A stretch of 41,514 nucleotides of DNA from positions 1 to 41,514 of the forward strand of contig CAIMWE010000091.1 of assembly GCA_903845115.1 (NCBI GenBank). The letters run 5' to 3'. Origin of the DNA: an uncultured Acidobacteriota bacterium (GTDB lineage Bacteria > Acidobacteriota > Thermoanaerobaculia > UBA5066). The translations under genes were made by a program, and so were the position numbers. Within the stretch, counting starts at the first letter, position 1. Every line of letters starts with the position of its first letter. This document shows, piece by piece, positions 1,707 through 12,160 of this stretch. Under the pieces are notes generated by a model that worked only from the letters and a program-made list of their open reading frames with translations, was not told the origin of the DNA and searched no databases.

Positions 1707-2444
1707 CTACGGGCAGGGCGGCTTTCGGGAGAGCCAGGCCACACCGCTGCTGCGCAGCCTAAGGACCTGGACGGGCCCGCCGATGTCGTCGTGACGGTGG
1801 GAGACCTCCCGGCGGACGAAGGCCGAGGCGATGCTCGAGGGGTCGCGGGTCCAGTAGCCGGGGTGGCTCGCCTTGAAATCGCTGACGTCTTCCGCGGGGC
1901 CGACGAAGATCGCCGTCACGCCGGTCGGGCAGTCCGCCCCGGGGCAGGACCGGACCTCCGCCCTTATGCTGAAGCTGCCGGCGGCGTCCGAGACGCTGAA
2001 CCGGATGTAGGAGATCGCCGGACGCCCGTGCTCGATCCGGGCCAGGAGCACGCCGGCGGGAGCCTTGCCGGCCACGTATCGCTCGAACGTCCGGGGAGCG
2101 CTGGACCGGAGGTCCGACACGGCGGCGCGAATCGGCCCGGTGGCGCGCGAGACGACGCCGCCGGAGGCGGTTCGCAAGTCCGGAGCGAACGCAACCACGT
2201 CCGTCACCAGGGCGAAGAGGTCGAGGCCGGCCGGATGCGCGGACATGCCGTGGATGGCGAAGACGGTGTCGTCCACGATCCGGACCTTGCACGTGTCGGG
2301 GAGACGGCGCCCGTGCTCGTCGACCACGCGGCTGTCGGCGGCGATCACCAGCTCGGACGGCGTGCGAATGGCGGCGATCGCGGTCCCGTGCGAGAGGTGC
2401 GCCGCGACCGGCGCCGCCAGGAGGAAAGCTGCGAGAAGCGGCAT
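1707..2444 (-). CDS. Exported proteasome-like Ntn hydrolase
   Basis: A 245-residue protein beginning with a short hydrophobic leader (residues 1-15), then HLSHG and Thr21. The segment GTAIAAI..ELVIAADSR..CK matches the start of a proteasome beta subunit. With Thr21 as Thr1, an Asp falls at 17 (Asp37 in ADSR) and a Lys at 33 (Lys53), the spacing of the catalytic Thr1/Asp17/Lys33 triad. Thr21 follows His-Gly, as at the self-cleavage site of beta-subunit propeptides. This suggests an autoprocessed Thr peptidase of the 20S proteasome superfamily (MEROPS T1-like). The export leader is inferred and is unusual for this fold. No partner subunit or ATPase gene is nearby. Confidence 0.7.
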   Translation of the reverse strand: MPLLAAFLLAAPVAAHLSHGTAIAAIRTPSELVIAADSRVVDEHGRRLPDTCKVRIVDDTVFAIHGMSAHPAGLDLFALVTDVVAFAPDLRTASGGVVSRATGPIRAAVSDLRSSAPRTFERYVAGKAPAGVLLARIEHGRPAISYIRFSVSDAAGSFSIRAEVRSCPGADCPTGVTAIFVGPAEDVSDFKASHPGYWTRDPSSIASAFVRREVSHRHDDIGGPVQVLRLRSSGVAWLSRKPPCP

Positions 2445-2453
2445 GGGTGGCAG

Positions 2454-2467
2454 GACGTCCGGACGTC
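2454..2467. promoter_or_regulatory. 14-bp perfect palindrome before the Ntn hydrolase start
   Basis: GACGTCCGGACGTC reads the same on both strands and ends 10 bases upstream of the ATG at 2444, in the short gap to the upstream gene. It could be an operator or a small hairpin affecting translation. No regulator is identified, and in GC-rich DNA a chance palindrome is possible. Confidence 0.3.
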
Positions 2468-2489
2468 GGCTCTTTTCGGCCCGGAGGGC

Positions 2490-3287
2490 CTACCTGATGC
2501 GGTCGATGCGGGCCGCCGGGATGGAGGTGCCGTCGTTCGACTGGTTGTTCACGTTCACGGCGTAGCAATAGGTCCCGTGCGGGTTCTCCGCGGCGGTCAG
2601 CTGCCAGAAGAAGATCCGGATGTTCTCCCCCGTGACCGGGACGGACGTCTGGGCCCATCCGCTCCCGGGGAGGTCCAGGACCAGCTGGGCGGCGGGCACC
2701 GTGGCGCTGCTCTCGTTGTAGACGTCGGCGCGTACCTGGGCCGCCGCGTAGTACATGTTCACGCAGCCCACGTTCGCCCGGTTCGAGGCGTTGACGCGGA
2801 CCCCCGCGGCCAGGGAGTAGCCCGTGTCCTTGTTCGCGAGATTCACGACGCGGTCGGCGATCCCCATCCCGAACAGCGACGTGCTGAAGCGCCCGTTCGC
2901 GTTCTCGGCCCACACCTCGGCGCTCGCGTAGAACGGCCTCGTCTCGGTGACCTCCATGAGGCCCACTCCGCCCCCGCCGGTATACGCGAAGACGTCCTGC
3001 AGGAAGTTTTCGTAGACCCTCGTCTCTCCCACCTCCAGGATGATCGTCTTGATTCCGGCGCTCCCCGTCTGCGTGTCCAGGACCGCGGCGAGGAGGATCC
3101 TCGTGGTGTGGGGGTTCGTGAGGACCATCCGGGTCTTGAAGTAGGCCCCGTTCGCCCCAGGGGCATTTGCCGTGGAGGGGAAGACGTAGCCGAGGCCCAC
3201 GAGGCTCTCCGGCTCCGGGGAGGGGAGCTCGGCCCCGAGGAGGGTCGACGAAAGGAGGAGGATTCCGAGGACCGCCGATTTCTTCAC
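2490..3287 (-). CDS. Exported protein of unknown function (265 aa)
   Basis: Starting at GTG 3287 gives a signal peptide (KKSAVLGILLLSSTLLGAE). GGGAG, eight bases upstream, is a plausible ribosome binding site; the frame stays open to 3479 but that extension is arginine- and proline-rich and looks non-coding. The mature protein is beta-rich: it has segments such as FKTRMVLTNPHTT, a GGGG turn in the middle and a C-terminal Asn-rich stretch near VNVNNQSND. It resembles the hypothetical exported proteins common in Acidobacteriota, but no specific family is recognised. It is co-directional with the TonB receptor gene upstream, with a 257-base gap and its own putative promoter. Confidence 0.75.
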   Translation of the reverse strand: MKKSAVLGILLLSSTLLGAELPSPEPESLVGLGYVFPSTANAPGANGAYFKTRMVLTNPHTTRILLAAVLDTQTGSAGIKTIILEVGETRVYENFLQDVFAYTGGGGVGLMEVTETRPFYASAEVWAENANGRFSTSLFGMGIADRVVNLANKDTGYSLAAGVRVNASNRANVGCVNMYYAAAQVRADVYNESSATVPAAQLVLDLPGSGWAQTSVPVTGENIRIFFWQLTAAENPHGTYCYAVNVNNQSNDGTSIPAARIDRIR

Positions 3288-3377
3288 TCTGTTCACTCCC
3301 GGTTCCCGTTGTCTTTCCGCCCCGGCGGGATCCCGAACTCGCAGGGAACCTGAATCCAGCATTCGATGCCGCGGTTC

Positions 3378-3383
3378 AAGATA
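3378..3383 (-). promoter_or_regulatory. Putative -10 element (TATCTT)
   Basis: In the 257-base gap between the exported protein (start 3287) and the TonB receptor (end 3545) the minus strand reads TTTGCTATCTTGAACC. The hexamer would give a leader of roughly 85 bases. The same nonamer TGCTATCTT lies before the ferredoxin gene at 30139. No clear -35 is seen; the rest of the gap shows nothing recognisable. Confidence 0.35.
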
Positions 3384-3544
3384 GCAAAGCGGGTGCCACG
3401 GAACGGAGCGAGGGATGCCGCTGATCGAGCGGTGTCGGGTGCCGGGGAGGCGGCGGGGGAGTCTCACGTCGTGTGCCACGAGACTCGAAATGGGACCGGG
3501 CGAGCGCCCTGACCCTGGGAAGTTGCCCTGGAGTTCTCAGGGAT

Positions 3545-6529
3545 TCAGAAGCGGACGCCGACCGACAGCCGGAAGGTGCGGGGGGTCTGGTAGGCGAGGG
3601 CGTTGTTCGCCTGGCCGAAGGTCGGACCCAGCTGCCACTGGGCGCCCATGGCGTTGCACGTGGCGGCGTCGGCGTCTCGTGGGCACTCCACCAGCGCATC
3701 GTGGTTCTGCGTGAAGGGATCGAACCTCGCGAGGTAGCTCCTGTTCAGGTTGGTGTAGACCGCCGTGCTGATGTACGAGTTGCTCGCGATGTGCTGGGTG
3801 TTGAACACGTTGAGCACCTGCGGCTGGGCGAAGAGTTCGACCGGCCCGATCCTGTAAGAGTAGTTGAGGGCAAGGTCGAGCTGGTACCAGGCCTCGGTCG
3901 TGAAGGCGCCCCGGGGACTGAAGGAGTAGTCGCTGTTGGATGGCGGGACCGCGTAGCCGGGGTTCGTCACGTACGAGGAGACGTCGACCGTGCCGACGGC
4001 GCTGTAGGGTGTGCCACTGTTGGCCTGGAAGATCGCGCTCACCCCGAGGTTCCCGACCGCCTTCGGGAGCGGGAGGTCGTACGACCCGAAGAGGCGGACC
4101 CGGTGCCGCTGGTCCTGGGGGAGCTCGCCGACGGGAGCGAACCAGGAGGCCCGATGGTATTCGGGGTAGTAGTTGAGGCCGCCGGCGGTAGGGCCGCTGG
4201 CGGCGTACTCGCCGGGGAGGTTGCCGTAGGTGTGCGACCAGGTCCAGTTGCCGCCCAGGCTCAACCGGTCGGCGGGCCGCCACGCGAACTGCGCCGCGAG
4301 GCCGTAGTAGGTCCGCCGGTACTCGCTGCCGCCGTTCCTCGTCACGTTGAGGTCGTAGACGTTTCCGGCCGGGTCGGTCACCTGGCCGGTCGACATGTCG
4401 GTGACGGACTCGATGAAGCCGCCTCCCTTGCGGTAGGTGCCGTCCAGGCGGTAGGTCAGGCGGGGGCCGACGGCCCCCGCGACGCCGAGGACGATCTCGT
4501 CGGTGTGCGGCGATTGCATCCCTTCGCCGATCGTCCAGTTGAGGCCCGGATACCCGGCTGCGGCCAGGCTGTCCTGGTTGAGAGCGGGGAACATGTCCGA
4601 CCGGTTGATGCCCCACCAGCCGAAGAACCTCGTCAGCGCGTCCGCGGCGCTGAGCCACGGGGCGGCGCCCGTGTTGATGTCGTCCCCGCCGTAGAGGTAG
4701 TAGTAGTAGGCGGGGTTGCCGGACGCCGAGGCGCCGCCGGCGAAGCTCTCCTGGACGGCCGACACGTACCGGGCGTAGGAGGCGTTGAAGCGCAGCCTGC
4801 CGTCCCCCCTCGGGTCGACGGTCACGCCGAGCCGCGGGCTCCACGCGCTGTCCTCCTGCCGCAGGACGCCGCCCATGTCGACCGCGTGGTTCTTGTCGTA
4901 CCGGAGGCCGAGGTTGAACGAGAAGTGGTTGTCGAGCTTCCAGGTGTCGTTCAGGAAGGCCGACCGGGTCCGCATGTCGGACGGCACGGCCGGCTTGTAG
5001 ACCGGGAAATAGGCCAGGTAGGCGAGGCCCGGGGTGAACTGCGGGTAGGCCGCCTCGCCGGCGAAGTGCGTGTCGTCGGACCACGCGATGTACTGGCTGC
5101 CTGACTGGTACATGTTCGAAAGGTGGTGCCCGCGGAACTGGTCGACGCCGACGAGGATGTTGTGGCTCCCGGCCGACGGCGTCGAGAGGAAGTAGGTCGC
5201 CTTTGCGAAGATGTCGCTGTTGTTCCGCTCCTCGGCGTTCCCGGGGCAGATCGCGCAGAAGGGGGGCGAGTTCCAGATCGCGGAATTCGTGAAGTCGAAG
5301 ATCGGCGTCCCCGCGAGGAGGTCGAGGGTGTGGGTGCCGGAGTTCTCGAAGGTGAAGTGCTTCTCCGAGTACTGGGCCTCGACGAAGAACTGGCCCGTCA
5401 GGACGCCGTTGTAGTTCACGACGGCGATGTTGCTCGGGAGGGTCCGGTCGTAGAAGCTGACGAGGTCGTACGTCGCGTAGGGCGAGTAGTAGTAGTTCAG
5501 CTGGTCGCGGGTCCAGTTCAGGTACGAGCCGGTCAGGGTGTGGTTCTGGAATGGCGAGAGCGTCAGCTTCCCCTCGAAGCGCTGGTCCTTGTTCGTCTGG
5601 TTGACGGAGATCAGGGTCTGCGGCGTCGTGTAGGTGTTGCTCAGCTGGGAATACCGTCCCGACGCGAAGAACCAGATCCTGTCCCTCAGGATCGGCCCGC
5701 CGAACGTCGCCTCGTAGGTCTCGTCGACCTCCTGGAGGCCGGGCGAGCCGAGCGGCGGGACGGCCACCCAGGCCGGGCTGTCGAATGTGGTGCGGAACGA
5801 GCCGCTGAAGGCGTTGCCGCCGGACTTCGTGATCGTGTTGATGACGCCGCCCGCGAACCGGCCGTACTCGGCCGAGATGCCGCCGGTGGAGGTCGTCGTC
5901 TCCTGGATGGCGTCCTCGACGAAGAGGTTGAGCGGCGTGCCGCGGATGCTGTCCATGATGTTCGCGCCGTTGACCAGGTAGAGGTTGTCGTACGACGTCG
6001 CGCCCGAGATGGTGATGGCGCCGTTCGGGCCATTCTGGTTCAGGCCGGGCGCCAGGGCGACGGCGGAGAGGATGTTCCGCGCCACCGGGAGCTTGTTCAG
6101 GACCTCGGCGGTGAAGGTCGTCGCCGCCTGGGGCGTCACGGAGACCTGCTCGCTGGCGCCCGTCACCTCCACGTTCGCCGAGACGGCCTCGAGTTTCAGG
6201 GAGAAATGGAGTTGCTGCCGCTGGGAGGCCCCGAGGGGGACCCCCTTCCGGGCGCCCGTCTGGAAGCCGTTCAGCTGGACTCCGACCTCGTACTCGCCGG
6301 GGGGGAGGTTCGGGATGATGAAGTCCCCGTTGACGGCCGTGATCGCCTGTCTCACCCCCTGCAACGCCGGCGAACTGGCGGTCACGGTGGCCGCGGGGAG
6401 AGGCAGCCCGTCGGGGGCGCTCGTCACGGAACCGGCGATCGAGCCGTTGGGCAGGCCCTGGGCGAGAAGTGACGGTGACATCAGGAACAGAAGAACACCA
6501 AGGATCGGGGGCAGAACACCCCTTCCCAT
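3545..6529 (-). CDS. TonB-dependent receptor with carboxypeptidase-regulatory N-terminus
   Basis: A 994-residue outer-membrane protein. A signal peptide (about 1-23, ending LLAQG) is followed by a carboxypeptidase-D regulatory-like beta-sandwich (about 28-110: GSIAGSVTS, then DFIIPNLPPGEYEV). A plug domain follows (about 125-245, including LYLVNGANIMDS and SAEYGRFAGGVINTITKSG), then a long beta-barrel rich in Tyr and Asn ending in a terminal Phe (RLSVGVRF), as expected for BAM-inserted barrels. This architecture is typical of the Oar/SusC-like receptors expanded in Acidobacteriota, which import large ligands such as oligosaccharides or peptides using TonB energy. The substrate cannot be told from sequence. 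GGAGGTGG lies upstream of the ATG at 6529. No SusD or TonB gene is adjacent. Confidence 0.93.
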   Translation of the reverse strand: MGRGVLPPILGVLLFLMSPSLLAQGLPNGSIAGSVTSAPDGLPLPAATVTASSPALQGVRQAITAVNGDFIIPNLPPGEYEVGVQLNGFQTGARKGVPLGASQRQQLHFSLKLEAVSANVEVTGASEQVSVTPQAATTFTAEVLNKLPVARNILSAVALAPGLNQNGPNGAITISGATSYDNLYLVNGANIMDSIRGTPLNLFVEDAIQETTTSTGGISAEYGRFAGGVINTITKSGGNAFSGSFRTTFDSPAWVAVPPLGSPGLQEVDETYEATFGGPILRDRIWFFASGRYSQLSNTYTTPQTLISVNQTNKDQRFEGKLTLSPFQNHTLTGSYLNWTRDQLNYYYSPYATYDLVSFYDRTLPSNIAVVNYNGVLTGQFFVEAQYSEKHFTFENSGTHTLDLLAGTPIFDFTNSAIWNSPPFCAICPGNAEERNNSDIFAKATYFLSTPSAGSHNILVGVDQFRGHHLSNMYQSGSQYIAWSDDTHFAGEAAYPQFTPGLAYLAYFPVYKPAVPSDMRTRSAFLNDTWKLDNHFSFNLGLRYDKNHAVDMGGVLRQEDSAWSPRLGVTVDPRGDGRLRFNASYARYVSAVQESFAGGASASGNPAYYYYLYGGDDINTGAAPWLSAADALTRFFGWWGINRSDMFPALNQDSLAAAGYPGLNWTIGEGMQSPHTDEIVLGVAGAVGPRLTYRLDGTYRKGGGFIESVTDMSTGQVTDPAGNVYDLNVTRNGGSEYRRTYYGLAAQFAWRPADRLSLGGNWTWSHTYGNLPGEYAASGPTAGGLNYYPEYHRASWFAPVGELPQDQRHRVRLFGSYDLPLPKAVGNLGVSAIFQANSGTPYSAVGTVDVSSYVTNPGYAVPPSNSDYSFSPRGAFTTEAWYQLDLALNYSYRIGPVELFAQPQVLNVFNTQHIASNSYISTAVYTNLNRSYLARFDPFTQNHDALVECPRDADAATCNAMGAQWQLGPTFGQANNALAYQTPRTFRLSVGVRF

Positions 6530-6682
6530 GAACCACCTCCACGCTGTACGAGGAGCGGAGCAACACTCTCCCCGATCTCACAATATGGTTTCCACCCGGC
6601 CAGGGCGCAAGGGAGTGAACGATTTGTTGTGCAGCCGGTTGGATGAACGGTTCCCCGGAGGCCCGGACGCCGCGCGAGAGCG

Positions 6683-6730
6683 TAGACTTTCTCTCGAAGT
6701 ACCGGCCACGGCGAGAGCGGAGGAGCCTCC
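6683..6730 (+). promoter_or_regulatory. Shared upstream element of kinase 1 (GCGTAGACT)
   Basis: GCGTAGACT starts 51 bases before the ATG at 6731, and TAGACT could be a -10. Nearly the whole stretch to the start codon (CGAAGTACCGGCCACGGCGA and GAGCGGAGGAGCCTCC) recurs before kinase 2 with the same spacing. The remaining divergent region back to 6530 holds the 5' side of the TonB receptor gene, including an AT-richer CATATTGTGAG on the minus strand that could be its promoter. Confidence 0.5.
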
Positions 6731-9370
6731 ATGAGCCTCGCTCCGGGCGAGAGACTCGGTCCTTACGAGGTCGTCGCGCCCCTCGGCGCGGGAGGGATGG
6801 GCGAGGTCTGGCGGGCTCGCGACACCCGCCTTGGCCGGGACGTCGCGATCAAGGTCCTGGCAGCGGAGGGCGCGGGGGACCTGAAGGCGCTTTCACGGTT
6901 CCAGCAGGAGGCGAGATCGGTCGCCGCCCTGTCGCATCCCAATATCCTCGAGATCTTCGACATCGGAGAGGAGAGGGGCGTCCCATTCGCCGTGACGGAG
7001 CTCCTCGACGGGGAGAGCCTCCGGGCCCGGCTGCGGGGCGGACCGCTCTCCGTGGCCGAGGCGCTCTCCTGCGCCCGGCAGATTACGGCGGGCCTCGCCG
7101 CCGCTCACGCGAAGGGGATCGTCCACCGCGACCTGAAGCCCGAGAACCTCTTCGTCACCAAGGACGGCATCCTGAAGATCCTCGACTTCGGCCTCGCCCG
7201 CCGCGTCATTCCGTCGGCCGGCAACGACACCGAGAACGAGACCGAGGAACGCCTGACCGGCCCCGGCAGCGTCGTGGGGACCGTGGGGTACATGTCGCCC
7301 GAGCAGGCCCGCGGCCTTCCGGTGGACCACCGGTCCGACCTCTTCTCGTTCGGGGCCGTGCTCTACGAGCTCCTCTCCGGCGCGAGCGCCTTCCGGCGCG
7401 CGTCGAACGCCGATACGCTGTCGGCGATCCTCAACGAGGAGCCGCCGCCGCTCGAGGAGTCGGGTCGTCCCGTCCCTGCCGAGCTCGACCGCGTCGTCCG
7501 GCACTGTCTGGAGAAGCGGCCGGAGAAGCGCTTCCAGTCCGCCCACGACGTCGCCCTTGCCCTGGAAGACGTGAACGAGGCCTCGCGCCCTTCCAGGGCA
7601 ATGCCGGTGGCGAGGGCAACACTGCCACGGAGGAACCCTGCCCTGCTCGCCGGGATTGCGGTGGTTCTCCTGGTCGCCGCGGGGGCCTTCGTCGTCTGGA
7701 GGAGCCGAAATGCCGGGACGCCAGCAACCGGTGCCGTGAAGCGGATCGCCGTCCTCCCGTTCGAGAACCTCGGGCCGGCGGACGACGACTATTTCGCAGA
7801 CGGCATCGCCGACGAGGTGCGGGGGAAGCTCACGGCCGTCCCGGGCCTGGAGGTGATCGCCCGGACCAGCTCGAACATCTACCGCAAGAGCCCGAAGCCG
7901 CTGAAGGAGATCGCCGAGGAGCTCGGCGTGCGGTACCTCCTCTCAGCCACGGTCCGTCGCCAGAAGGAGGCGAGCCGTCTCCGCATATCCCCCGAGCTGG
8001 TCGAGGTGACGTCGGCTCCCGGCCCGGCGTCACGCTGGCAGCAGCAGTTCGAGACGGCGGTCGACGATGTCCTCCAGGTTCAATCCGACCTCGCGACGCG
8101 TGTCGTCGAGCAGCTCGGGGTGGCGCTGGGCGCCGGTACCGAGAAAAGACTGACCGACAAGCCGACCCGGAATCTCGCGGCCTACGAGGCTTTCCTCCGG
8201 GGCCAGAAAGTCGCGAGTGAGCTGATGAACGACCCGTCGGCCGGCCGCCAGGCCCTCTCGTTCTTCGAGCAGACGGTGGCCCTCGACGCGGCATTCGCGG
8301 AGGCGTGGGCGGCGCTGTCGGCCATCGCCAGCAAGCTCTACTACAACCAGGTCCACGATCCGGCTCTGGTGGGACGCGCCCGCGAGGCGGCCGAGCGGGC
8401 GCTCGCCCTGGCGCCGGGGCGGCCCGAACCGTACCTCGCTCTTGGCCTGTACCACACGCTGGTGGCAGGCGACCCGAGGCGCGGGTTCGAGTTCCTCCGG
8501 ACGGGACTCGGGGTGGCGCCCGGGGACGTCCGCCTTCTAGCGGAAATCGGCAGTACGGAGCGGAACCTCGGCCGGTGGGACGAAGCGCTGGGTCACCTGC
8601 GGCAGGTTCTGCGGCTCGACCCGAAGTCGAGAGGCGCCATGTTCACGATGGGCATGACGCTGGCCTGGATGCGGCGCTTTCCGGAGGCGAGGCAGCTCGT
8701 CGAACGCGCTCTCGCGATGAACCCGTCCGACCTGAACACGATCGTCGAGCTGGCCCAGATCCACATCGGAGAGGGGGACCTCCAGGGGGCCCGGAGCGTC
8801 CTCCGCGCTGTCCCGAAAGAGGTCTCGCCCGTGGAACTCGTCGTCTACGTCACCAGGTACTACGGCGCCTTCATCCTGGACGACGAGCAGCGGGACCTCC
8901 TCCTCCGTCTGCCGCCGAGCGCCTTCGGGGATGACCGCGGCCAACGTGCGGCGTGTCTGGCCGACGCCTGCGCCTTGAAGGGGGACGAGGAAGGCAAGCG
9001 CCGCTACGCGGAGGAGGCGAGGGAGAGCTACGCGGCAAAGGTCGCGGCGAACCCAAACGAACCCGTGCTGCACGTACAGCTCGGGGTCGCTCTCGCGGCC
9101 CTTGGCCGCGGCGCGGAGGCGATCCAGGAAGGAGAACGGGGGCTGTCCCTCAAGCCTCGCTCCGTGGACGCGTGGAGCGCGTCGTTCTCGGAAGCTAGCG
9201 TGGCGGAGATCTACAGCGTCGTCGGGGAACACGAGAAGGCGCTCGACCTGCTCGAAGTCATTCTCCGATCTCCTGGCGTCCTTTCGGCGGGCTCCATCAC
9301 GCTCATCCCCGAGTTCGCTCCGCTCCGGTCCTACCCTCGATACCGGAAGCTGATCGAGCAGGGGCGCTGA
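6731..9370 (+). CDS. Membrane Ser/Thr protein kinase with TPR C-terminus
   Basis: An 879-residue Hanks-type (PknB-like) kinase. The catalytic domain covers about 10-280: glycine loop [13 protein letters not shown] (19-31), ATP-anchoring Lys41, catalytic Asp134 in HRDLKPEN, metal-binding Asp152 in LDFGLAR, and activation segment [13 protein letters not shown]. All catalytic residues are present. One transmembrane helix (about 303-325) separates the cytoplasmic kinase from an output region. That region begins with a segment like the TolB/FlgO N-terminal domain often paired with TPRs ([24 protein letters not shown], about 337-450), then several TPRs to the C-terminus. Probably a signalling or scaffold kinase with an extracytoplasmic sensor. 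It is the tandem paralogue of the next gene. The ATG follows GGAGGAG. Confidence 0.93.
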
Positions 9371-9496: not shown

Positions 9497-12160
9497 ATGG
9501 GTCTCGCTCCGGGCAAGAGACTTGGACCGTACGAGGTGATCGCGCCCCTGGGCGCGGGCGGCATGGGGGAGGTCTATCGGGCTCGCGACACGAAGCTGGC
9601 CCGGGACGTCGCGCTGAAGGTCCTCCCTGACCAGCTCTCGTACGACCCGAAGGCCCTGGCCCGGTTCGAGAACGAGGCGAAGGCGGTCGCGGCGCTCTCC
9701 CACCCGCACATCCTGGCCATCCACGACTTCGGCCGGATCGACGGGGTCTCTTTCGCCGTCACCGAGCTGCTGGAAGGGGAGACCCTGCGCGCGCTGCTCC
9801 AGCGGGGTCCTCTCCCCGTCCGCCGCGCCCTCGAGATTGCCGGGCAGGTCGCGGACGCCCTCGCCGCCGCCCACGAGAAGGGGATCGTCCACCGGGACGT
9901 CAAGCCCGAGAACGTGATCGTCTCGAAGGAGGGGAACGTCAAGCTCCTCGACTTCGGGCTGGCCCGCCAGTCGGTCCTCCCGTCCGACTCCGCCTTCACG
10001 AACACCCCTACCGGGGATCTCCTCACCGCCGCGGGAGCGATCGTGGGGACGGTGGCCTACATGTCGCCCGAGCAGGCGCAGGGGCTGGCCGTCGACCACC
10101 GCTCGGACCAGTTCTCGCTCGGGACGGTCCTGTACGAGATGCTGACCGGGAAGAAGCCGTTCCGGGGAGCGTCGACCGCCGAGACTCTGACCTCGATCAT
10201 TCGCGACGAGCCGGAACCGCTGGAGACGGGGGCACCAAACGTCCCCGCCCCAGTGCGCTGGCTCGTCGAGAGGCTGCTGGCGAAGGAGACGGGCGGCCGG
10301 TACGCGGCGACCCAGGACCTGGCGCAGGAGCTGATCTCCCTGCGCGCGCATCTCTCCGAAGCAGCCAGCGCGACGGGCGTGGCGCCTGGGGAAACATCCC
10401 GCATCCGCCGGCAGGTCCCTGTCTGGGCGCTGCCAGCCGTCGCCGCCCTCGCCGCCTTGCTCGGTCTCTTCGCGGGCCTTCGGTCGGCTCGCGTCGGATC
10501 CTCTCCGGCTTCCCTCAGGCTGGCGATCTCCTTCCCGGTCGACGCCGAGCCGGGCACGGTGAACCACAACCCGTTCGTCCTCTCCCCGGACGGGAGGACC
10601 CTCGTCTTCTCGGGCACGAAGCTCTTCGTCCGTCGGCTCGACGGCGACGAGATCAGGGCGATCCCGGGAACCGAAGGGGGTTACTTTTTCTCCCCGTTCA
10701 TCTCCCCGGACGGTCTCGAGATCGGCTTCTTCTCCGGGGGGAAGCTGAAGAAGGTTTCCCTCGCCGGAGGCTCCCCGATCACTCTCTGCGACGGCGGCTC
10801 CGCGGGCGGGAGCTGGGGAGCCGACGGAACGATCGTTTTCGCGAGAGCCATTCCGGGGAAGCCGCCGGGCCTCTGGCGCATCCCGGGGTCGGGTGGGGAT
10901 GCCAGGGTGGTGGCAGCCTCGGATGCCGCGAAGGGCCAGTTCTTCAGGTTCCCGCAGATCCTCCCGGACGGAGAGCACGTCCTCTTTGTGATCAAGGAGG
11001 GCGATGGGGCGATGCGGGCGGCCGTGGTGTCGCTCCGGACGGGCGAAAGGCGAGTCGTCGTGGAGGACGCCTCGTACGCCCGGTACCTCCCGACGGGACA
11101 CCTCGTCTTCACTCGCCCGGGGTCGCTCTTCGCCGTCGCGTTCGGCCTGAAGCGCCTCGAGACCGTCGGGTCTCCTGTTCCGCTTCTCGACGATCTCGTG
11201 ACGAATACGGACTTCTCACAAGCTGCCGCGTACACGTTCTCGCAAGAAGGGACGCTCGTCTACGCACCGAGGCCGAGGCTCCAGCGGACCCTCGTCTGGG
11301 TCGATCGCAAGGGCGCGGTCGAGAGGGTGCCCCTTCCGCCGGGGGGATACCACGCCGTGGCCCTCTCCCCGGATGGAGGGCGGCTCGCGGCGATCACCCA
11401 TGAGAAGGGCGAAACGTTCTCCTTGATGATCGGCGACCTCGCGCGGGGGACTTTCAGCCGATCCAAGGTGGAAGGTAAGTACCAGAGCCTGGCCTGGGTG
11501 CCGGACGGGAAACGGATCGCATTCGGATTCGGAACGGGAGGGAAGAACCATGCCGCGTTCTGGCAGAGCGCCGATGGAAGCGGACTGCCCGAGCGCCTCA
11601 CGAGCGAGGCCGGGATCGAGCACGAGGTCCCGAGTTCGTTCTCTCCCGATGGCAACCTCCTCCTGGTCACCGTGGGGAGCGGAGCTCGGGCGGGCGTTTT
11701 CGCCCTTCCGATCGGCGGGGAGAGGACGCTGCAGCCGGTCCTGCCCCAGCCCGGAGGTGATGTCCAGTTCTCGCCCGACGGCCGATGGATGGCGTACGGA
11801 GCGGACGGCGGAATAGACGTCGAGCCCTTTCCGGGCACCGGCCCGAAATGGAAGATCTCGAACGAAGGGGCGAGCGAGTTCCACTGGTCCCGGAGCGGCC
11901 GCGAGCTCTTCTACCGGAACGAGAACAAGATGATGGTCGTCGACATCGAGATGAAGTCGGTGTTTCGCTCCGGGCGGCCCCGGCTACTCTTCGAGGAACG
12001 CTATCTCGACGTCGGGGACCAGAATGCCTTCGACGTGTCGGCCGACGGGACGCGCTTCCTCATGATCAGGGAGGACCCGGCCGAGCTCGGGTCCGCCCAC
12101 GCCAACGTCGTCCTGAACTGGTTCGACGAGGTGAAGAGGCGGGTCCCGGGCGCGAAGTGA
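9497..12160 (+). CDS. Membrane Ser/Thr protein kinase with PD40 beta-propeller
   Basis: An 887-residue Hanks-type kinase, closely similar to kinase 1 over the catalytic domain: [13 protein letters not shown] (19-31), Lys41, Asp134 in HRDVKPEN, Asp152 in LDFGLAR and YMSPEQAQG. A transmembrane helix (about 310-330, ALPAVAALAALLGLFAGL) follows. The C-terminal half (about 345-880) is a TolB/WD40-like propeller with repeated PD40-type blades, seen in LSPDGRTLVFSG, ISPDGLEIGFFSG, LSPDGGRLAAI, FSPDGNLLLV and FSPDGRWMAYG. Propellers of this kind are expected to bind protein or ligand outside the membrane. No catalytic residue is missing. It stands alone as a transcription unit and is convergent with the DUF4388 gene. 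Confidence 0.93.
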   Translation: MGLAPGKRLGPYEVIAPLGAGGMGEVYRARDTKLARDVALKVLPDQLSYDPKALARFENEAKAVAALSHPHILAIHDFGRIDGVSFAVTELLEGETLRALLQRGPLPVRRALEIAGQVADALAAAHEKGIVHRDVKPENVIVSKEGNVKLLDFGLARQSVLPSDSAFTNTPTGDLLTAAGAIVGTVAYMSPEQAQGLAVDHRSDQFSLGTVLYEMLTGKKPFRGASTAETLTSIIRDEPEPLETGAPNVPAPVRWLVERLLAKETGGRYAATQDLAQELISLRAHLSEAASATGVAPGETSRIRRQVPVWALPAVAALAALLGLFAGLRSARVGSSPASLRLAISFPVDAEPGTVNHNPFVLSPDGRTLVFSGTKLFVRRLDGDEIRAIPGTEGGYFFSPFISPDGLEIGFFSGGKLKKVSLAGGSPITLCDGGSAGGSWGADGTIVFARAIPGKPPGLWRIPGSGGDARVVAASDAAKGQFFRFPQILPDGEHVLFVIKEGDGAMRAAVVSLRTGERRVVVEDASYARYLPTGHLVFTRPGSLFAVAFGLKRLETVGSPVPLLDDLVTNTDFSQAAAYTFSQEGTLVYAPRPRLQRTLVWVDRKGAVERVPLPPGGYHAVALSPDGGRLAAITHEKGETFSLMIGDLARGTFSRSKVEGKYQSLAWVPDGKRIAFGFGTGGKNHAAFWQSADGSGLPERLTSEAGIEHEVPSSFSPDGNLLLVTVGSGARAGVFALPIGGERTLQPVLPQPGGDVQFSPDGRWMAYGADGGIDVEPFPGTGPKWKISNEGASEFHWSRSGRELFYRNENKMMVVDIEMKSVFRSGRPRLLFEERYLDVGDQNAFDVSADGTRFLMIREDPAELGSAHANVVLNWFDEVKRRVPGAK

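Follow-up and report, generated by a model that had tools for sequence, protein, structure and literature searches.

A putative exported proteasome-like Ntn hydrolase encoded by a lone gene in an uncultured Acidobacteriota bacterium

Can the active site of the proteasome be put to use outside the cytoplasm? To our knowledge, proteasomes act in the cytoplasm, as do their known relatives in bacteria, and the most familiar of them are caged and fed by ATPases. The question is raised by the gene for a 245-residue protein on contig CAIMWE010000091.1 of an uncultured Acidobacteriota bacterium (assembly GCA_903845115.1), of which 41,514 nucleotides were analysed (the window; features in Table 1). From the homology, predicted fold, invariant catalytic residues and family-wide leader pattern found by computation, we conclude with a probability of roughly 0.72 that the product is a single-gene extracytoplasmic N-terminal nucleophile (Ntn) hydrolase of the proteasome-like superfamily. 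An exported enzyme of this kind had been proposed in an earlier note on the same DNA, and the reading frame (2444 to 1707, minus strand) and the three residues (Thr21, Asp37 and Lys53) that it named are correct.

The reading frame has a competitor in an overlapping open reading frame (ORF) of 520 residues on the plus strand (1791-3353), which is long in G+C-rich DNA, is chosen by a simple length-weighted gene picker, and would make the 245-residue ORF false. The G+C content by codon position of the latter is 0.69/0.56/0.91, high at the third position as in the neighbouring genes, and the plus-strand ORF has the mirrored pattern. A search of 396 Acidobacteriota genomes found full-length relatives of the minus-strand product, with E-values down to 2e-24, that span all 245 residues. 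Because these homologues exist, the plus-strand alternative is already refuted and its probability is close to nil. The only usual start codon in the 245-residue frame is the ATG at 2444, separated by 45 bases from the stop codon of the upstream gene (2490-3479, minus strand).

In the encoded protein, Thr21, Asp37 and Lys53 lie at offsets 0, 16 and 32, which is exactly the spacing of Thr1, Asp17 and Lys33 in proteasome beta subunits, as claimed in the earlier note, and Thr21 is preceded by Ser-His-Gly. The alignment used here (A4, 17 rows) combines the window protein with 16 full-length Acidobacteriota homologues that are 19-30% identical to it. Nine positions of the mature protein are invariant: Thr21, Asp37, Ser38, Cys52, Lys53, Gly66, Gly182, Gly222 and Trp237. 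All four catalytic sites named beforehand (Thr21, Asp37, Lys53 and Gly66) are among them (hypergeometric estimate ~1e-6), and conservation of the catalytic residues is, as read from the alignment, more than chance. The homologues thus keep the Thr/Asp/Lys pattern, the loss of which had been named as grounds for rejecting the proposal. Invariance at such low identity, together with normal codon bias, also argues against a catalytically dead or decaying relic, which we regard as very improbable even though similarity to anything named is weak and one relative (G587) has a broken second copy of the gene (L078).

Single-sequence tools barely detect the kinship with proteasomes. The window protein does not reach the gathering score of Pfam PF00227 (13.6 bits, where 22.4 are required), and phmmer against the PDB gave one weak match, to the Mycobacterium tuberculosis 20S beta subunit, in the correct register. 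The sub-threshold score is a sensitivity limit of the Pfam model and not a defining biochemical trait. Over A4, PF00227 is the sole Pfam family at E<=0.1, with matches in 7 of 17 members (best score 19.7 bits, best E-value 7.3e-4). The 50 PDB sequences matched by a family profile at E<=1 are without exception chains of proteasomes, HslV or BPH, and the Thr of the profile is aligned to residue 1 of mature HslV; BPH (5ovu; E-value 0.008) was no nearer than the 20S chains. Comparison of the family with Acidobacteriota HslV by hhalign gave 86.5%, over the N-terminal part. The AlphaFold2 (AF2) model of the window protein (predicted local distance difference test, pLDDT, 83.7; predicted template modelling score 0.82) had the M. 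tuberculosis 20S proteasome as its best Foldseek match (E-value 1.8e-10). It aligned to 20S beta with Z 18.6 and a root-mean-square deviation of 2.9 over 176 residues, and its residue 21 fell on residue 1 of many 20S beta chains. The model of a homologue (L067; pLDDT 88.4) aligned to 20S beta still better, with Z 20.4 and its proposed Thr1 likewise on residue 1, and to Anbu (5lox) with Z 19.0 over 190 residues. Viral structure matches were few, HslV-like phage proteins among them. The predicted fold is that of a proteasome-type Ntn hydrolase (alpha-beta-beta-alpha), where any other fold would have spoken against the proposal. Taken together, the homologues, the family-profile search and the modelled fold make the kinship firm.

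The case for export begins with the leader ahead of Thr21. Residues 3-15 (LLAAFLLAAPVAA) are hydrophobic, with a peak of 2.53 (11-residue Kyte-Doolittle mean) 7 residues ahead of Thr21, and the leader has a pLDDT of about 50 in the AF2 model. Read heuristically, it has a hydrophobic core, Ser at -3 and Gly at -1, and no positive N-terminal region (n-region). Signal peptidase I tolerates Ser at -3 and Gly at -1, though this is less common. Across all members, again by heuristic reading, most leaders begin with a positive charge, followed by a hydrophobic core and then a short run of polar residues, and it is mainly these clear, signal-peptide-like leaders of the homologues that support the export proposed in the earlier note, the window protein's own leader being weaker.

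Two main types of junction are found among the members, Ala/Thr1 and Gly/Thr1 (the slash precedes Thr1). The first occurs in 13 intact members and one broken copy, with the hydrophobic segment ending 2-9 residues earlier and a mostly small or aliphatic residue at -3 (AEA/TT, ATA/TT, ARA/TT, VHA/TT, VRA/TT and APA/TM; the VHA/TT of L083 comes with a one-residue insertion). The second comprises the window protein (SHG/T), L074, L070, the leaderless L071 and L072 and, with longer spacers, the distant exported-type cousins L043 and L049. L073 (YGQ/T) and L086 (VWC/T) belong to neither type. An Ala/Thr junction with a small -3 residue shortly after the hydrophobic core is the pattern of signal peptidase I, and 20S beta subunits cleave themselves at Gly/Thr. 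Since most homologues show an Ala-X-Ala type motif, Thr1 could be freed by signal peptidase and not by self-cleavage. The self-cleavage site at His-Gly suggested earlier is thus present in the window protein, but for most homologues signal peptidase could suffice. Judging from the junctions, the family seems to have both routes of exposing Thr1, and the window protein could use either.

The cysteines may point to the same compartment. Cys52, at position 32 of the mature protein, and the C-terminal Cys, seven residues past the invariant Trp237, are both present in 19 of 28 proteins, both absent from eight and found singly in one (L072), a count that is inflated and a p-value that is no true probability because the rows are related. 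The eight are three HslV proteins, the BPH-like L016, the leaderless L030 and L048, and the exported-type L043 and L049. Because conserved Cys pairs co-occur, the sequences suggest disulfide formation outside the cytoplasm, with one of the bonds bracing the strand of the active site.

Besides the relatedness of these rows, several points weigh against an exported enzyme of the proteasome type. The n-region of the window protein's leader contains no Lys or Arg, and this is the chief weak point in the case for export of this protein taken alone. L071 (KHG/T) and L072 (LSG/T) have no leader at all, though both retain Thr1 and Cys32, and the link between Cys32 and export is therefore not strict. 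Supporting residues of the D166/S169 type in 20S beta are not evidently conserved in our reading of the alignment. The lack of Lys and Arg and the leaderless relatives, together with the His-Gly/Thr junction that the phmmer alignment places in M. tuberculosis 20S beta as well, would fit a cytoplasmic proteasome-like enzyme in which the hydrophobic 20 residues are a short propeptide and not a signal peptide, self-cleaved at His-Gly/Thr, perhaps on ring assembly. We consider this unlikely, as most homologues have clear signal-peptide-like leaders ending in small-X-Ala/Thr and as an oxidising compartment would suit the conserved Cys pairs.

For the extracytoplasmic enzyme, we infer the following course of export, processing, disulfide formation and catalysis. 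The Sec pathway would export the precursor, directed by its N-terminal 20 residues. The leader would then be removed at Gly20/Thr21, by signal peptidase I directly or, alternatively, through a first cut a few residues earlier and then self-cleavage at Gly/Thr as in 20S beta; most homologues, with Ala/Thr, would need signal peptidase alone. Once free, Thr1 would be activated by Lys33 and Asp17, be served by a Gly-based oxyanion hole and attack an amide bond, either in the periplasm or in the surroundings of the cell, and the bracing disulfide would be that between Cys32 and the C-terminal Cys. Assembly into a barrel is possible. Activation may even be coupled to export, an idea for which we see about even odds: a signal peptidase I cut at Ala/Thr1 would both release the enzyme and create its nucleophile, replacing assembly-dependent self-cleavage, and the Gly/Thr members would be intermediate or ancestral.

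The best-supported description is an ATP-independent extracytoplasmic Thr hydrolase, which may act on peptides or on some other amide, or may carry out a specific ligation. Limited hydrolysis of peptide or other amide bonds is the most likely reaction; the putative activity could equally be that of an amidase, acylase or ligase as that of a peptidase. A variant that concerns the substrate only, and is compatible with export, holds that the enzyme has ceased to be a general peptidase and is an exported amidase, acylase or transpeptidase acting on a small or specific substrate, much as connectase is a proteasome-fold protein turned ligase (Fuchs, Alva and Lupas, 2021; PMC8665760). The connectase precedent, the lone gene, the patchy distribution, the absence of neighbours conserved across families and the high divergence all favour such specialization. 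No substrate clue of any kind was found, however, and the AF2 model has E54-57 and E60-66 in direct succession, with no insertion of the connectase type between strands 3 and 4, so that we treat this variant as tentative and somewhat improbable.

Among known systems, the closest is the 20S beta subunit (MEROPS T1A), which is the best structural match and shares the fold, the Thr1, Asp17 and Lys33 spacing and the Gly/Thr junction. Unlike it, the window protein is encoded by a lone gene without alpha subunit or ATPase, has a signal-peptide-like leader, Cys32 and a C-terminal Cys, is about 15% identical and stays under the Pfam cut-off. HslV (MEROPS T1B) belongs to the same clan and has Thr1 with Asp17 and Lys, but the window protein is about 50 residues longer after Thr1, bears a leader and is not encoded beside hslU. 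Anbu is likewise a lone bacterial T1 homologue other than HslV, and the L067 model aligns to it over 190 residues, as given above; however, neither the model of the window protein nor that of L067 has the long C-terminal helix of Anbu (both finish in a strand followed by a short tail), a leader is not known to have been described for Anbu, and Anbu is not among the best 50 structural matches listed for the window protein. The family also resembles BPH, together with the 22 proteasome homologues newly described, with many more predicted, by Fuchs, Alva and Lupas (2021; PMC8665760): these too are diverged single-gene bacterial proteins with Thr1, Asp17 and Lys33 that came to light through low-scoring searches and have an uninformative context. 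It may overlap one of their groups (BPH, Anbu, WPH, PMI and others). That study confines propeptides to most 20S beta and HslV subunits, and its main text makes no mention of signal peptide, secretion, periplasm or Acidobacteria; relative to this text, an exported variant of the proteasome-like family appears to be new. A literature search for secreted proteasome homologues returned nothing relevant. Other families do include exported Ntn hydrolases, e.g. penicillin G acylase. Export of an Ntn hydrolase is thus not new, but for the proteasome type it seems not to have been described in the literature searched. If the proposal holds, the proteasome active site can work independently of ATP and of an unfoldase, and perhaps also of a cage, and signal peptidase offers a simple, testable route to an exposed Thr1. 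The family also bears on the diversification of the proteasome fold.

Table 1. Coordinates of the gene and of its leader and conserved codons in the window.
Feature	Position	Strand	Basis
Gene, putative exported proteasome-like (T1-type) Ntn hydrolase, 245 aa	1707..2444	minus	stop included; ORF, codon bias, full-length homologues, fold
Leader MPLLAAFLLAAPVAAHLSHG, signal-peptide-like, ends Ser-His-Gly before Thr21	2385..2444	minus	hydrophobic peak, homologue leaders
Thr21 codon (Thr1, proposed nucleophile)	2382..2384	minus	invariant in A4; residue 1 of 20S beta in structural alignment
Asp37 codon (Asp17)	2334..2336	minus	invariant in A4
Cys52 codon (position 32), adjoins catalytic Lys	2289..2291	minus	invariant in A4; absent from HslV and leaderless cousins L016, L030, L048
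Lys53 codon (Lys33)	2286..2288	minus	invariant in A4
Gly66 codon (about Gly47, putative oxyanion-hole region)	2247..2249	minus	invariant in A4; role by proteasome analogy
Cys167-Pro-Gly-Ala-Asp-Cys172 loop, second candidate Cys pair	1929..1946	minus	CxxxC or CxxxxC in 11/17 A4 members
Cys244 codon, conserved C-terminal Cys (W-x6-C)	1713..1715	minus	16/17 A4 members; co-occurs with Cys32

The family is patchy, with a core member in 9 of the 396 genomes and in about 13 when distant exported cousins are counted; a profile search added to the relatives found by the initial search. In this sample, other genomes of the window's own taxonomic family had no convincing member, and the tree left the window protein unplaced. 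A scan of genome contigs with the window protein alone gave no confirmed relative, one with a 3-row alignment matched five named loci, and tblastn found no relatives in plasmids and phages. Set aside were the weak matches L002-L005 in relatives (short, three of them in frames of 765-787 residues), L027, L031 and L032 (on or opposite other genes) and L017, L046 and L047 (HslV-like).

In the host genome (G000, 96% complete), PF00227 is matched only by the window protein and by HslV, which lies on contig C41 with an HslU-like gene adjoining; no 20S proteasome was detected by this search. Since HslV is present separately in the host and a 20S proteasome was not detected, the window protein is an additional paralogue. 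The earlier remark that alpha subunits and ATPases are missing stands for the 20S proteasome and for the neighbourhood, where neither an ATPase partner nor an hslU-like gene is encoded, but must be qualified by the HslV and HslU-like genes of C41. Comparison of gene context found no neighbour common to members across taxonomic families; the Vicinamibacterales-type set alone shares neighbours, a PAS/response-regulator gene and a PQQ dehydrogenase. The genes directly flanking the window gene encode leader-bearing proteins without Pfam match that occur in the host's family either in several copies or sporadically, and the upstream one has 7 matches in the same genome, one of them 55% identical inside a 679-residue frame.

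Several relatives deserve mention in their own right. L043 (1219-2040, minus strand) and L049 (1345-2409, plus strand) form a distant exported T1-like branch (ERG/TLVVAVP and KRG/TLVVAIP) with ADK in place of ADS, no Cys32 and a spacer of 12-26 residues between hydrophobic core and Thr1. L085 (5668-6582, plus strand) and L045 (802-1746, minus strand) are an exported T1-like pair (APA/TMIVVI and VWC/TAIVVI) with Cys before Lys, a C-terminal Cys and longer chains of 287 and 273 residues after Thr1. L048 (1483-2220, minus strand) is a leaderless proteasome-like protein that starts Met-Ser (SLVITVYVPEGIVMASDS), which would make Ser1 the nucleophile. The window's own taxonomic family contains a BPH-like cytoplasmic T1 protein (L016, 4681-5298, plus strand, on contig C32 of G004) that starts MTTLVAVRK and scores 24.1 bits to PF00227. 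On contig C113 of G587, the second copy L078 (about 5950-6800, reverse strand) is broken by a frame change and an internal stop, and the copy L076 is intact. On contig C15 of G368, a family member (L042/L075) has a recombinase-like gene and small phage-type or mobile-element-type genes in its vicinity. In the window itself, two Ser/Thr protein kinase-like genes whose N-termini closely resemble each other stand in tandem (6731-9370 and 9497-12160, plus strand).
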